From an uncultured bacterium (GTDB lineage: Bacteria; Cyanobacteriota; Vampirovibrionia; Gastranaerophilales; Gastranaerophilaceae): a DNA stretch of 64,000 nt. Positions within the stretch are counted from its first letter, which is position 1, and every line of letters starts with the position of its first letter. The stretch is from NCBI GenBank assembly GCA_949296245.1, contig CASFNW010000011.1, positions 1-64,000 of the forward strand, in the 5' to 3' direction. The notes below the pieces were generated by a model that saw only the letters and a program-made list of their open reading frames with translations, did no database searches and was not told where the DNA came from. Positions 58,172 to 64,000 of the stretch are shown here, piece by piece. The position numbers and the translations under genes were made by a program.

Positions 58172-58708
58172 TTATTCAAAATAACCTATATAAGGCAGGT
58201 TGCGCATATAGCCTTCGTAATCCAGACCGTAGCCTGCAACAAATTTGTCATCTATGTCAAAGCCGTAGTAATCAGGTTCTATGTCTGTTTTTCTTGCTAT
58301 TTTTTTGTTTAGAAGTGTGACTACTTTCAGATTTTTTGGTTTGTGTGTTCTGCAAAGAATATCAAGAAGAAACTTCATGGTGCAGCCTGTATCTATTATA
58401 TCTTCCACAATCAATACATTTTTGTGCTCCAGATTCGGCAGGGTCAAATCCATTGCCTGCACATGTCCTGATGAGGTTTGCGAGTTTCCGTAGCTTGAAA
58501 CTCTTATAAACTCCATTTGAACAGGCATTTTCAGGTGTTTTGACAAATCGCAGAAGAAAATACTCGAGCCTTTTAACACGCAAATCAAGGTCAAGTCTTC
58601 TTTTGTGCCGAAGTCATTATTAATTTTTTCAGCAAGTTCTTCGATTCTTTTTTCTATTTGTTCCTGTGTAAACAGAATTTTCAAATCTTCAACTTTTTTA
58701 TCAAGCAT
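58172..58708 (-). CDS. hpt: Hypoxanthine phosphoribosyltransferase
   Basis: Salvages hypoxanthine (and guanine) with PRPP. 178 residues. 'VLKGSSIFFCDL', 'MEFIRVSSYG', the PRPP loop 'VLIVEDIIDTGCTM', and the C-terminal 'FVAGYGLDYEGYMRNLPYIG' are standard Hpt. Overlaps tilS by 8 nt. The tilS-hpt pairing is a widespread arrangement, often with ftsH following, which here is far away. Confidence 0.95.
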   Translation of the reverse strand: MLDKKVEDLKILFTQEQIEKRIEELAEKINNDFGTKEDLTLICVLKGSSIFFCDLSKHLKMPVQMEFIRVSSYGNSQTSSGHVQAMDLTLPNLEHKNVLIVEDIIDTGCTMKFLLDILCRTHKPKNLKVVTLLNKKIARKTDIEPDYYGFDIDDKFVAGYGLDYEGYMRNLPYIGYFE

Positions 58709-60074
58709 TTTTTTGCACCTGTTTTGTTACCGTTAATATATAGGCAGGCAGTTTTTGTGCTCTCAGTTTTTCGCTAAGACATACACCTGCCGCCCACAGT
58801 ATTTCGTTGTTTTTACATAAAAGAAGTATATCGTCTCTTTTGAATTTTTCCAATCCTTTGTTTATAAAGAGTTTTTTGAGCTTCATTGTACCCTGCATTC
58901 CAAAAGGCTGTATAATGTCTCCATGCAAACGGGTGCGCAAAGTAAGTTCAAAATCATCAGGCAGGAAAACAAAGGCTTTTTTCTCAGCTGCTTTAGGATA
59001 TTCAGGTGTTTTTGTATCCGTATATTTTTCTATTTTAAAAATATGATTGTGAAAATTATATGAGCCGCATTTTGTTATTGTAATTTCGTCATTTGTTTTT
59101 ACGGGTTCAAGGTCATCAATTGTACAAATTTTTTCTTTAGAAACAAAGAGCCACAGGTCTTTTGTTAAAGACAGGGTTTTACCGGATTTATATTTTGCGT
59201 TTTTGTTTATAAATTCATAAATTTCATCCACTTTTTTTGAATCGTAATCAAGATTTTTTTCTATCAAAAAGTCAAAAATTATTTTTCTTTGGACGTCTTG
59301 CGAAAGATTTGTAAATTTTTGAGTAATAATACAGTTGTTTTGCGTGATTTCAAGTCGGATTTTGTCCAGATATTCTTTTATAATATTTTGTTCAGATATG
59401 GCAATTTTTGAAAGATTCAGGATTACATCATCTATTCTCGGGTTCAGATTTTTCAACTCCGAAATTATCTGATGTCTTAAAAAATTGCGGGCGTATTTTA
59501 TGTCAAAATTGCTGGAATCATTGTTTGGTACGAGTTTATTGACTGTGCAGTATCGCATGATATCTTTTCTTGAAAAATTCAAAAGAGGTCTGTATATTGT
59601 ACAGGGGCTGCAATCCGGAAGATAAGATTTTTCAAGTATTCCGCACAGCCCTTTTACTCCCGTGCCTTTTGTAAGGCGGTAGAGAATTGTTTCCGTGTTA
59701 TCGGATTTTGTATGTGCAAGGAAGAGTCCGTCTGCATTAAATTTTTTAAAATATTTTTTAAAGAACTCATGTCTTTTTTCTCTTGCTGCAGTTTCTGTTT
59801 TAGGAACCCCGTCAGGCAGAGTTTCTGTATAGAATTCTATGTTTTTTTCTCTGCAGTATCTTTCGCAGTTTTCCTGTTCTATTTCCGCTTCACGCCCGCG
59901 CCAGTTGTGATTCAGGTGCAGAGCAATGAGACGAAACGGTATTTTCTGGGATATCCTGTGTAAAATATCAAGCATGCACATAGAATCATAACCGCCGGAA
60001 AATCCGACAATAAAAGTCTTGTTTTCATCGAGAAGTTCGTGTTTTTTTAAAAAACTTTTAACTTTGTTAATCAT
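58701..60074 (-). CDS. tilS: tRNA(Ile)-lysidine synthase
   Basis: Modifies C34 of tRNA-Ile(CAU) to lysidine so that it reads AUA. 457 residues. N-terminal PP-loop ATPase 'VGFSGGYDSMCML' (SGGxDS), 'HLNHNWRGREAE', 'AHTKSDNTETILYRLTKGTG', then the TilS middle and C-terminal domains ('GDIIQPFGMQGTMKLKKLFINKG'). Overlaps the LdpA-like gene by 8 nt upstream and hpt by 8 nt downstream. It complements ileS in this window. Confidence 0.95.
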   Translation of the reverse strand: MINKVKSFLKKHELLDENKTFIVGFSGGYDSMCMLDILHRISQKIPFRLIALHLNHNWRGREAEIEQENCERYCREKNIEFYTETLPDGVPKTETAAREKRHEFFKKYFKKFNADGLFLAHTKSDNTETILYRLTKGTGVKGLCGILEKSYLPDCSPCTIYRPLLNFSRKDIMRYCTVNKLVPNNDSSNFDIKYARNFLRHQIISELKNLNPRIDDVILNLSKIAISEQNIIKEYLDKIRLEITQNNCIITQKFTNLSQDVQRKIIFDFLIEKNLDYDSKKVDEIYEFINKNAKYKSGKTLSLTKDLWLFVSKEKICTIDDLEPVKTNDEITITKCGSYNFHNHIFKIEKYTDTKTPEYPKAAEKKAFVFLPDDFELTLRTRLHGDIIQPFGMQGTMKLKKLFINKGLEKFKRDDILLLCKNNEILWAAGVCLSEKLRAQKLPAYILTVTKQVQKNA

Positions 60075-60990
60075 TTTTACAGGATTCTATAAGTTTTTTA
60101 GCTTCTATAATTGCATCATCAAGATTTTTGTTTTTAACTATTTTTCTTGCATAAGAACCGATTCCTATACCATTATATCTGAGACAACACATTTTTGCTA
60201 ACTCTGCTGTTTTTTCGTTTGTACCGCCCGACATAAAGATATAAGTACCGAAAGGCTGTACAAGATGTGCCATTGCCGCAGCCTGTAAAGTGGAGTTAAA
60301 AGTGTTGTCCCCTCCTGACATGGGCACACCGTCGGCCTGAATAATGAATCTTGTGTCGCCTTTCCATTTTATTACTTTATTCAAAAGTTTTTTAACTCTT
60401 TCGTTGCTGTAATATTTTCTGTCAAGGCACAGGCTCAATAATCCTTTGAAATTTTTCAAGACATATTTTATTTCTTTTTCAGGAATTTTTTTTACGGAAA
60501 GATGAAGTTCTATGCAGTCAAGATTGTAATCCTGTGCGATTTGTACAATATTTTCCATGCTTTGTACGTTATAGTCGCAAAAACTTATTGCTTTGCATTC
60601 ATCACATTTTTTGCAGCCAATGCATTTTTCTTTTATGACAACAGGATATTTATCTTCCCATACGATTGCCTGTCTCGGGCATTTTTTTATACATTTGCCG
60701 CATTGTTTGCATTTTTTTGTATCAATAAAACATTTTTGTACATGGCTGTCTCCGCTTAGGCCTGTACTTATTGTATAGAAAAAGTCATCTGTGCTTCTGC
60801 CGGTTTTTTCAATTGTCCTAAGTACCGTTTCAACAGCTTCTTTAGAAGGGTTTATATCGAACATGTCCGCACCGGCAAGTGCGTAAATTTCAACAAGATT
60901 TTCTATTTCTTTAAAATCCTGATTGCCAAGCCCCAGAACCAGTTTAAAAATTTTGTTGTTTTCAAGAGTTTGTACAAGATTTTTTTTCAT
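60067..60990 (-). CDS. LdpA-like iron-sulfur protein
   Basis: 307 residues. Two ferredoxin-type clusters: C94-x2-C97-x2-C100-x3-C104 and C123-x2-C126-x2-C129 with further Cys at 132 and 138. The N-terminal 'FKLVLGLGNQDFKEIENLVEIYALAGADMFDI' and the C-terminal 'GVPMSGGDNTFNSTLQAAAMA' and 'FMSGGTNEKTAELAKM...GIGIGSYARKI' resemble LdpA, a cyanobacterial Fe-S protein that links redox state to the circadian clock. The present organism shows no sign of photosynthesis, so the role must be different or ancestral, perhaps redox sensing. In a tight operon after a GT2 gene (3-nt gap) and before tilS. Confidence 0.72.
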   Translation of the reverse strand: MKKNLVQTLENNKIFKLVLGLGNQDFKEIENLVEIYALAGADMFDINPSKEAVETVLRTIEKTGRSTDDFFYTISTGLSGDSHVQKCFIDTKKCKQCGKCIKKCPRQAIVWEDKYPVVIKEKCIGCKKCDECKAISFCDYNVQSMENIVQIAQDYNLDCIELHLSVKKIPEKEIKYVLKNFKGLLSLCLDRKYYSNERVKKLLNKVIKWKGDTRFIIQADGVPMSGGDNTFNSTLQAAAMAHLVQPFGTYIFMSGGTNEKTAELAKMCCLRYNGIGIGSYARKIVKNKNLDDAIIEAKKLIESCKND

Positions 60991-60993
60991 AAA

Positions 60994-61932
60994 CTAAAAA
61001 TTTATTCTTTCTTTTTCAACCACAACAGGTTTTTTGTTCACTCTTGTGTAGATTGCGCCTATGTATTCCCCAAGTACACCCATGCAAAACAGCTGTATAG
61101 AAGCAAGGAAGAAAATACTTATGATAAGAGGAGCAATACCTATAGTGAATTCTTCCCAGAAAATGAGTTTTAAAATAAAATACAATACCGCAGCAAGAAA
61201 ACTCAAAAATGAGAACCCGAACCCGAGAAAAGCCATAAGTCTCAGCGGAACTTTAGAGTGTTTTACTATTCCTATCATTGCATTGTCATACAGTGTGTAA
61301 AAGTTGTTTTTTGTAATCCCTCTTTTTCTTGCGGGCTGTTTAAAATCAACAAAAGCCTTTTCAAAACCTATTTCACAAATCAGACCTCTTATGTAGGGAT
61401 ACGGGTCATCAAGACTTTTTATGATGTCAATCACCTGTTTGTCAAAAAGCCCGAATCCCGTGCAGTTTTTAACAAGGTTTGTATCATCATCCGCAATACG
61501 GGAAATAAATTCGTAGTAAAGTTTTCTCAGAAGGAAAAACAGGAAAGACTCTTCGCTTTCTGTTTTTCGCCCGAGAACAATTTTGTATCCCTGTTCCCAT
61601 TTTTGGATAAAGTCTTTTATGAGTTCAGGCGGATCCTGCAAATCCGATGCAAGATAAATAACCGCATCGCCGGAGGCCTGAATCATTCCGTAGTAGGGGG
61701 AACGAATATGACCGAAATTGCGGGCGTTTAAAATTACTTTTATACGATTATCTTTTGCAGCAAGTTCTCTTAATTTTTCTTCTGTTCTGTCAGTAGAACA
61801 GTTGTCAAGCAGAATATATTCAAACTCATACCTGCCGCAAAAAGGCTCTATTGCTTTCATTACCCTTTCATACAGGGTGTCAAGATTTTCTTCTTCATTG
61901 TAACAGCTTGAAACCAGACTGATTTTTTTCAT
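60994..61932 (-). CDS. GT2 glycosyltransferase, DPM1/GtrB-like
   Basis: 312 residues. GT-A domain with 'LVSSCYNEEENLDTLYERV', 'DNCSTDRTEEKL', 'ASDLQDPPELI' (DxD-type metal site), 'QDP' and the acceptor segment near 180-200; two C-terminal membrane helices (about 228-255, 262-285). Such enzymes move a sugar to polyprenyl phosphate for later transfer outside the membrane. First gene of the operon. Divergent from a DUF2142-like protein, which could be a partner membrane transferase or flippase. Confidence 0.9.
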   Translation of the reverse strand: MKKISLVSSCYNEEENLDTLYERVMKAIEPFCGRYEFEYILLDNCSTDRTEEKLRELAAKDNRIKVILNARNFGHIRSPYYGMIQASGDAVIYLASDLQDPPELIKDFIQKWEQGYKIVLGRKTESEESFLFFLLRKLYYEFISRIADDDTNLVKNCTGFGLFDKQVIDIIKSLDDPYPYIRGLICEIGFEKAFVDFKQPARKRGITKNNFYTLYDNAMIGIVKHSKVPLRLMAFLGFGFSFLSFLAAVLYFILKLIFWEEFTIGIAPLIISIFFLASIQLFCMGVLGEYIGAIYTRVNKKPVVVEKERINF

Positions 61933-62024
61933 ATAACTCCTCGTAAAATTTTCTAAACATTATTATAACACGCACTCTTTTTTAGGATAAACTATAATCA
62001 TCTGATAATTATATGGGAGTTTTG

Positions 62025-63431
62025 ATGGAGAATACCTGGTTTAAACCGGAAAGAGTTTTTTTGATATTGTCTTTATTCTGGGGATTACTGTATCTTTTTG
62101 TTTCTCCGCCTTTTACCGCTGCTGATGAATGTAGTCATTTCTGGAAGATTTATCTTCTTTCCGAAGGAAAAGTAAGTGCCAAAAAACTTACCTCTCCCGT
62201 TGCAAACGGTATCGTAAGAGACAGAGTGCTTTCTATGACGGGTGAGTACGTGCCTTTTGGCATGTACAAAGCCGGATATAAAAATATTAAAACAAGGTGG
62301 AGAGATTTTGAAAAGACAAGTTTTTCGCAAACAAAAGAGATTTTAAGCTATCCTTTAGAAAAAGATAAACTTGTATTCAATACTTTTCCTGTACCGGCAT
62401 ATACGGTATTTTCGTATTTGCCATCCGTAATTCTTATGAAAATAATGACTCTGGCAAACATAAACCCGGGGATTATGATGTATGTTTTAAGACTGGTGTC
62501 TCTTGTTACGTATACTGCTTTAATTTATGCGGCAATAAAAATAATCCCTTTTAAAAAATGGCTTTTTGCTGCTCTGGCGCTTTTGCCAACAGCTTTATAT
62601 CATTCTTGTATGATAAATGCCGATTCTATGACAATCGGATTGGGTTTTTTGTTTACGGCGTTGACTCTTTATTATGCTTATAACGAAAAAGTACAAAAAT
62701 TGACAACGAAAAATTTGTTAGTTTATTTTCTTGCCGGTGTATGGTTTGTTTTTTGCAAATTTGCTTATCTGCCAGTTTTGTTAATTTATTTTTTAATTCC
62801 TGAAAATAAGTTTGAAAGTAAAAAAATAAGATATAAGGCCTTTGTTTATGCTTTGTTATTTGTTTTGCTGTTTACTTTTTTTGTCTTTACAATAAATGCC
62901 AGAATAACAGCAAATACTGATGACTTTTTTATGAGGCAGACGGCTGTTGCATTTTTGATAGAAAAACCGATAATATTTATTAAGGTGGCTTTTTATACCC
63001 TTCTTGTAAAAGGGAAAGACTGCTTGACAGGAGTCATCGGGAGTTTTGGCTGGGGCGAGGTAAAAATCCCGATACATATTGCGGGGTTATATTATCTTTC
63101 TTTGCTTTTATTTTCCGTCTTTAATTTTAAAGAAGAGCAAACACAAAAAACACCTGACACCGTACACAAACTTTTATTTGCCGGTATTTTTATTTTGTAT
63201 TCTATACTGCTTTTTGTTATTTTGTATTTGAATTTTCAAATCTCGAAAGACGGTATAATAGATGGATTCTGGGGCAGGTATTTTATTCCTGTTTTGCCTT
63301 TTATATTTTTATGTTTTCAAAATAAAAAGTTTTTTGTTAAAACAAATGCACTCATTTTTGTAAATTTGTTTTTTATAAATTTTGTTTTGTTTGTAAGTTT
63401 AATAAGGATAGTTTACAGATTCTATGTATAG
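62025..63431 (+). CDS. DUF2142-like polytopic membrane protein 1
   Basis: About 468 residues with ten or so membrane helices. The first loop has 'SPPFTAADECSHFWKIYLLSEG' and later 'FPVPAYTVFSYLPSVILMK', features of DUF2142 and related GT-C-like membrane proteins that begin with a periplasmic acidic loop (P-D/A-E-x-x-H). I take the ATG after gggag (5-nt spacing); an ATG four codons earlier has no such site. Probably a polyprenyl-sugar-dependent glycosyltransferase working with the adjacent GT2; substrate unknown. Confidence 0.75.
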   Translation: MENTWFKPERVFLILSLFWGLLYLFVSPPFTAADECSHFWKIYLLSEGKVSAKKLTSPVANGIVRDRVLSMTGEYVPFGMYKAGYKNIKTRWRDFEKTSFSQTKEILSYPLEKDKLVFNTFPVPAYTVFSYLPSVILMKIMTLANINPGIMMYVLRLVSLVTYTALIYAAIKIIPFKKWLFAALALLPTALYHSCMINADSMTIGLGFLFTALTLYYAYNEKVQKLTTKNLLVYFLAGVWFVFCKFAYLPVLLIYFLIPENKFESKKIRYKAFVYALLFVLLFTFFVFTINARITANTDDFFMRQTAVAFLIEKPIIFIKVAFYTLLVKGKDCLTGVIGSFGWGEVKIPIHIAGLYYLSLLLFSVFNFKEEQTQKTPDTVHKLLFAGIFILYSILLFVILYLNFQISKDGIIDGFWGRYFIPVLPFIFLCFQNKKFFVKTNALIFVNLFFINFVLFVSLIRIVYRFYV

Positions 63432-64000
63432 ACAATGTTTAAAACCGCAGAATATTTTTGCTTTTATATGTCTGGTGTTCGGATTGTTTTTTGTGTTTTT
63501 CAATCCGCCTTTTCAAACACCTGATGAAGCCCAGCACTTTTTTAAGATGTGGGGATTTACGCAGGGTACTTTTAATTTTAAGGTTCTAAACGGATATTCC
63601 GGTGATATTCTGCCGGATAGTGTTATAAAAATAAGCAAATTTGACAGACTGTGCCGTCATCCGGAGTTAAAAACTTCTGCCGGCGAAATTTTTTCCGCAT
63701 TAAAAATAAAACTGGAGAAAGATAAAACCTCTTTTTATGTTTTTACTCCGACTTCTTACACGCCGGTGTCGTATTTTCCGGTGTTTTTAATACTGTGGGC
63801 AATGAAGCTTATTAATGTGCCGCCTTTAATTATGCTGTATATAATGCGGTTATGTTCTTTGTTTTTGTATACGGGGCTTTGTTATCAGGCAATAAAAATA
63901 ATCCCTTTTAAAAAATGGCTTTTTGTCTTGCTTACGCTTTTACCCATGGCTGTATATGAGGGTTCATCCGCTACCGCAGACCCGTTAACTACGGGAACGG
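63424..64000 (+). CDS. DUF2142-like membrane protein 2 (partial, runs off the window)
   Basis: The ATG overlaps the previous gene by 8 nt and the frame is open for 192 codons to the window edge. N-terminal helix 'IFAFICLVFGLFFVFF', then 'NPPFQTPDEAQHFFKMWGF', the same P-x-E-x-x-H loop as the previous protein, and 'TPTSYTPVSYFPVFLI'. 'AIKIIPFKKWLF' is identical in both, and the DNA is identical over 38 nt (62531-62568 and 63888-63925), pointing to tandem duplication with later exchange. Confidence 0.75.
   Translation, partial: MYRQCLKPQNIFAFICLVFGLFFVFFNPPFQTPDEAQHFFKMWGFTQGTFNFKVLNGYSGDILPDSVIKISKFDRLCRHPELKTSAGEIFSALKIKLEKDKTSFYVFTPTSYTPVSYFPVFLILWAMKLINVPPLIMLYIMRLCSLFLYTGLCYQAIKIIPFKKWLFVLLTLLPMAVYEGSSATADPLTTGT

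Follow-up and report, generated by a model that had tools for sequence, protein, structure and literature searches.

The window analysed here, a stretch of 64,000 nucleotides of bacterial DNA, carries on its minus strand a tightly packed run of genes for a family 2 glycosyltransferase (GT2), an LdpA-family protein, TilS and hypoxanthine phosphoribosyltransferase (table 1). The ldpA reading frame opens with ATG, is separated from the end of the GT2 gene (60994) by 3 nt and overlaps tilS by 8 nt, just as had been claimed for these two junctions in the original prediction; tilS and hpt likewise overlap by 8 nt. Purifying selection on the window ldpA is strong and, because dN/dS is 0.04-0.06 in close pairs within the genus, we regard it as a functioning gene. 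Beside the glycosyltransferase, two related large membrane protein genes lie in tandem (62013-63999), the first with a DUF2142 match, and at least three DUF2142-like genes are found nearby in the relatives L002-L004.

Table 1. Genes and protein features of the ldpA region, in coordinates of the window.
Feature	Position	Strand	Basis
LdpA-family protein, tilS-linked paralogue, 307 aa	60067..60990	-	Profile matches, tree, AF2 pLDDT 94.5
tilS, tRNA(Ile)-lysidine synthetase	58701..60074	-	TIGR02432, 180 bits
hpt, hypoxanthine phosphoribosyltransferase (HGPRT)	58172..58708	-	TIGR01203, 198 bits
Family 2 glycosyltransferase (GT2), upstream of ldpA	60994..61932	-	Profile match
ldpA stop/tilS start overlap, 8 nt, ATGATTAA	60067..60074	-	ORF coordinates
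N-terminal barrel part, strands 1-3, residues 1-77; invariant K16, D45, S75	60760..60990	-	Alignment, AF2; weak DUF561/Ycf23 match, residues 1-57
Insert following barrel strand 3: ferredoxin-like 2[4Fe-4S] domain, residues 78-143 (approximate)	60562..60759	-	Profile, AF2
Fe-S motif 1, CX2CX2CX3CP (C94, C97, C100, C104), CKQCGKCIKKCP	60679..60711	-	Alignment
Fe-S motif 2, shortened CX2CX2CX2CK (C123, C126, C129, C132), CIGCKKCDECK	60595..60624	-	Alignment
LdpA_C match, residues 155-287, strands 4-8; E161, H163, Q218, D220-G221, SGGTN (254-258), GSYAR (278-282)	60130..60528	-	Profile, alignment, AF2

Host Genome and Family Membership

The closest records to the window protein (72-98% identity) come from Candidatus Gastranaerophilales MAGs, and the source is a gut bacterium of this non-photosynthetic order of Cyanobacteriota. 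Profile searches of the window's genome (89.9% complete) gave no match to the photosystem reaction centre (Photo_RC) or to KaiB, in keeping with the non-photosynthetic lifestyle assumed at the outset; fuller genomes of the genus agree on this absence, and KaiB and the reaction centre were also without a match in all 16 genomes tested from the same class (the window's and 15 others). A KaiC was rejected, the best KaiC-family match in the window's genome being RadA (614 bits). Because the host belongs to the cyanobacterial phylum, a point that the original prediction had missed, an LdpA homologue is less surprising here.

The window protein is almost certainly a member of the LdpA family. Pfam LdpA_C (PF12617) matches it with E=1.3e-10 (41.6 bits; curated cut-off 22.2), Fer4 with E=2.4e-8 and NCBIfam CircClkLdpA (NF045992) with E=3.2e-26 over residues 5-286, and no family other than LdpA fits its whole length in the Pfam and NCBIfam profile searches. 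The assignment, first made on two Fe-S motifs and on resemblance of the N- and C-terminal parts, is thereby borne out, and the N-terminal part is recovered both by NF045992 and by the Ycf23/DUF561 profile comparison described below. The NF045992 score of 92 bits lies far under the 450-bit equivalog cut-off, and the protein should therefore be named LdpA-family rather than "circadian clock protein LdpA"; three other non-photosynthetic copies score 152-177 bits and a photosynthetic copy 578 bits. With E allowed up to 0.01, Pfam LdpA_Fe-S-bd (PF25160) did not match the window protein; this model matches 30 of 39 LdpA_C-positive members and misses part of the family. Matches in a PDB sequence search were confined to the ferredoxin part, and no plasmid-borne LdpA homologues were found in the plasmid collection searched. 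The window protein shares with photosynthetic LdpA (e.g. Synechococcus elongatus; PF12617, NF045992) the whole-length profile match, eight Fe-S cysteines and related DGxPMSG, GGTN and GSYAR motifs; yet it is only about 25% identical, is shorter and has a shortened motif 2.

Since the cysteines are retained, Fe-S clusters are likely to be present in the window protein. The 18 photosynthetic rows all have motif 1 as CX3CX3CX3CP, and CX2CX2CX3CP prevails in the remainder. For motif 2, the tilS-linked copies of the genus have CX2CX2CX2CK (14/14), some other tilS-linked genera a still shorter version, and the Gastranaerophilales LdpA not linked to tilS the canonical CX2CX2CX3C; judging from these sequences, the properties of cluster 2 may differ in the tilS-linked form.

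Fold and Relation to Ycf23

The AF2 model of the window protein, built with 39 family sequences (pLDDT 94.5, pTM 0.91), is a (beta/alpha)8 barrel, interrupted after strand 3 by a domain that holds both Fe-S motifs. Foldseek returned barrels in general and no single enzyme family, with pyruvate kinase first, followed by TrpA, MfnB and ThiE, at TM-scores of about 0.4-0.6. Pyruvate kinase likewise carries an inserted domain at that point, after strand 3. What LdpA shares with these phosphate-binding barrels is the fold; identity is 7-14%, and the inserted domain is unrelated to that of LdpA.

A relation to one particular barrel family emerged from profile comparison. Over 233 columns, hhalign matched LdpA to Ycf23/DUF561 (PF04481) at a probability of 98.9 (E 2.8e-17), the ferredoxin block falling in the gap; two unrelated barrel proteins used as controls gave probabilities below 1, and a single Ycf23 gave 86. 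Apart from LdpA_C, no barrel family other than DUF561 (15/39) had matches in two or more LdpA members; the window protein itself scores 20.9 bits against a curated cut-off of 21.6, over residues 1-57 only. On this profile evidence it is a distant relative of Ycf23/DUF561, not a member. The two families align from end to end in the barrel and in the invariant K, D, S, E and Q positions; Ycf23, on the other hand, has no Fe-S domain and is encoded by a separate gene in the window's genome (L188, G000:C2:21189-21899). In the alignment, K16, D45, S75, E161, H163, D220, G255 and R282 are invariant in LdpA, and in the model they stand on strands 1, 2, 3, 4 and 6 or just past strands 7 and 8; the K, D, S and E pair with the invariant K18, D47, S69 and E88 of Ycf23. 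From the secondary structure and the order of the elements, the conserved residues would lie near the barrel mouth. Of 34 genomes of the phylum searched for Ycf23/DUF561, 31 have it; the three without it (G140, G182 and G003) all carry unlinked LdpA, too few cases to interpret.

Two Forms of LdpA in Gastranaerophilales

The window's genus is divided between two forms of LdpA: 14 genomes carry one with tilS directly behind it and 72-100% identity to the window protein, 9 carry one that is 39-44% identical, with tilS elsewhere, and none of the 23 carries both. A tree of 52 sequences unites the 24 tilS-linked copies, from about nine genera, in a clade of their own (99/92; recovered in 98% of bootstrap trees) that excludes all 28 unlinked copies. 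G152 has both a linked and an unlinked LdpA, and the two forms are therefore paralogues; the window protein is the diverged, tilS-linked one. Unlinked Gastranaerophilales LdpA (e.g. L066, G140) has the same conserved strand residues, which are retained in both paralogues with few exceptions, but differs in its canonical motif 2 and in not adjoining tilS, being often followed instead by a HAD hydrolase gene (L066:7442-8209 and homologues in Gastranaerophilaceae).

How the linked copy arose is a separate matter, and the answer is compatible with all readings of function. One duplication followed by differential loss would predict genomes with both forms, such as G152. A horizontal transfer among Gastranaerophilales, with replacement of the resident ldpA, would in turn fit the presence of either form alone in the 14 and 9 genomes of a single genus, as well as the TilS tree, whose labels need at least three changes and where an unlinked pair stands beside linked genomes (96/93 branch); yet the resolution of that tree is poor, and with G152 in view we consider transfer possible but somewhat doubtful.

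Distribution and Gene Neighbourhoods in the Phylum

LdpA_C was found in 377 of the 386 genomes sampled across Cyanobacteriota, nearly always in single copy and including nearly all of the non-photosynthetic ones; because three genomes first scored as negative gave weak matches on a repeat search, the true count is slightly higher. No LdpA_C match was obtained in the near-complete genomes G245, G340, G126 and G165, which may represent losses or search misses; G245 and G340 are large genomes of a photosynthetic family. In the 14 control genomes, S. elongatus was the sole positive. A survey of 11,264 genomes in 2017 found LdpA to be exclusive to Cyanobacteria, with no mention of Melainabacteria (PMC5520375). 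In a tree of 68 LdpA sequences, photosynthetic LdpA forms a single clade (100/99) that excludes the window protein, which falls with other Gastranaerophilales LdpA; the trees consisted of LdpA rows only, and the root was placed by hand on the photosynthetic clade, so that separation is shown rather than direction. With photosynthetic LdpA in one clade and the window protein outside, photosynthetic Cyanobacteria are not favoured as a source of transfer. From distribution and tree together, it is highly likely that LdpA was present in the ancestor of the phylum and that it has a role independent of light or Kai.

Outside Gastranaerophilales, in photosynthetic and non-photosynthetic lineages, the gene after ldpA is usually ycf45-like (a SpoIIIAA-type ATPase, PF25516, often with R3H), an arrangement seen at 18 loci, including L082, L076 and L095. 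We take Ycf45 to be the name for this PF25516/R3H domain set. PF25516 occurs in 28 of 28 phylum genomes tested, among them the window's, where it lies on a contig other than that of ldpA, and among the 14 controls in S. elongatus only. Directly upstream of ldpA, an Orn/Lys/Arg decarboxylase-type gene was noted at seven non-photosynthetic loci (two of seven scanned), including L076:7478-8782 and L085:8123-9748. A conserved glycosyltransferase-ldpA unit was considered and rejected, the adjacency being found in the closest relatives only.

The tilS/hpt setting is a derived, lineage-specific arrangement of one paralogue clade and is therefore silent on the oldest role of LdpA. The position of ldpA between the glycosyltransferase and tilS had been read as a sign of an older role unrelated to light, an argument that fails on the derived nature of the arrangement and on a glycosyltransferase neighbour common to the closest relatives alone. 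The older, light-unrelated role itself draws support from phylum-wide presence and from the single photosynthetic clade, and none from the tilS/hpt operon. Of the original account as a whole, the LdpA family and the non-photosynthetic genome stand, the operon as a sign of an older role does not, and the Ycf23-like barrel, along with the host phylum, had been overlooked.

Function of LdpA

Overall, we consider it probable that LdpA began, in the ancestor of the phylum, as a redox enzyme or a ligand binder gated by redox state, was kept throughout the phylum and later became an input to the clock. The barrel itself is probably catalytic or ligand-binding. The clusters would carry electrons between ferredoxin or the quinone pool and a small ligand, which would probably bear a phosphate and have its binding site in the SGGTN and GSYAR loops; fold and motif position hint at such electron transfer to a phosphorylated ligand, a step that we put forward tentatively. 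A housekeeping activity would have come first, to be read out later by the Kai clock of photosynthetic Cyanobacteria, and timekeeping is probably a secondary role of LdpA. We know of no enzyme activity or ligand for LdpA or Ycf23. A narrower version, in which we place a little less than even confidence, holds that LdpA is a barrel enzyme with Fe-S clusters that has gone unrecognised, occurs throughout the phylum, is a relative of Ycf23 and has an ancient partner in Ycf45; its effect on the S. elongatus clock would be a side effect of metabolic activity and not that of a dedicated clock input.

A sensor, on the other hand, could work without chemistry, and the conserved strand residues may serve structure or binding only, which counts against an enzyme. 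In S. elongatus, LdpA has indeed been described as a redox sensor that influences clock period and the level of CikA (PMC13421787, PMC5520375). This published reading favours a protein that has lost catalysis, keeps the barrel as a scaffold, reads the redox state through its clusters and signals to partners. The partner would be CikA in clock-bearing species and here something else, for example the RpaA/RpaB/NblS regulators, whose homologues have been reported in Melainabacteria (PMC3787301, PMC4040986). In a pseudo-enzyme, however, the strand residues would be expected to drift, whereas nearly all barrel strands bear residues conserved as well as the cysteines, throughout the phylum and in both paralogues, and several of these residues are common to Ycf23, itself devoid of an Fe-S domain. 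We regard a pure sensor of this kind as rather unlikely. Far less probable still is a specialisation of the tilS-linked paralogue for a task in tRNA modification or translation with TilS. The linked copies do form one clade in about nine genera and have been kept directly upstream of tilS despite large divergence, with overlapping stop and start and with hpt next; yet hpt is not a tRNA gene, ldpA stands apart from tilS in most genomes, translational coupling alone could preserve the gene order, and the barrel residues are identical to those of the unlinked form. TilS is not known to require any Fe-S or redox partner, which also counts against such a partnership.

Conclusions

LdpA has been known only as a light/redox input to the cyanobacterial clock, and the mechanism by which it controls CikA level is listed as an open question (PMC13421787). 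What is new here is its near-universal presence in the phylum, a paralogue clade linked to tilS, and a predicted barrel fold with an inserted Fe-S domain and a relation to Ycf23; in the literature (open-licence papers), we found nothing that connects LdpA with either Melainabacteria or a TIM barrel. If LdpA is indeed an enzyme, conserved where both Kai clock and photosystem are missing, it would join RpaA, RpaB and NblS among the light and clock network components found outside photosynthetic Cyanobacteria (PMC3787301, PMC4040986). The question would then become what LdpA makes or reduces, and its non-photosynthetic relatives would offer a clock-free setting in which to study it.
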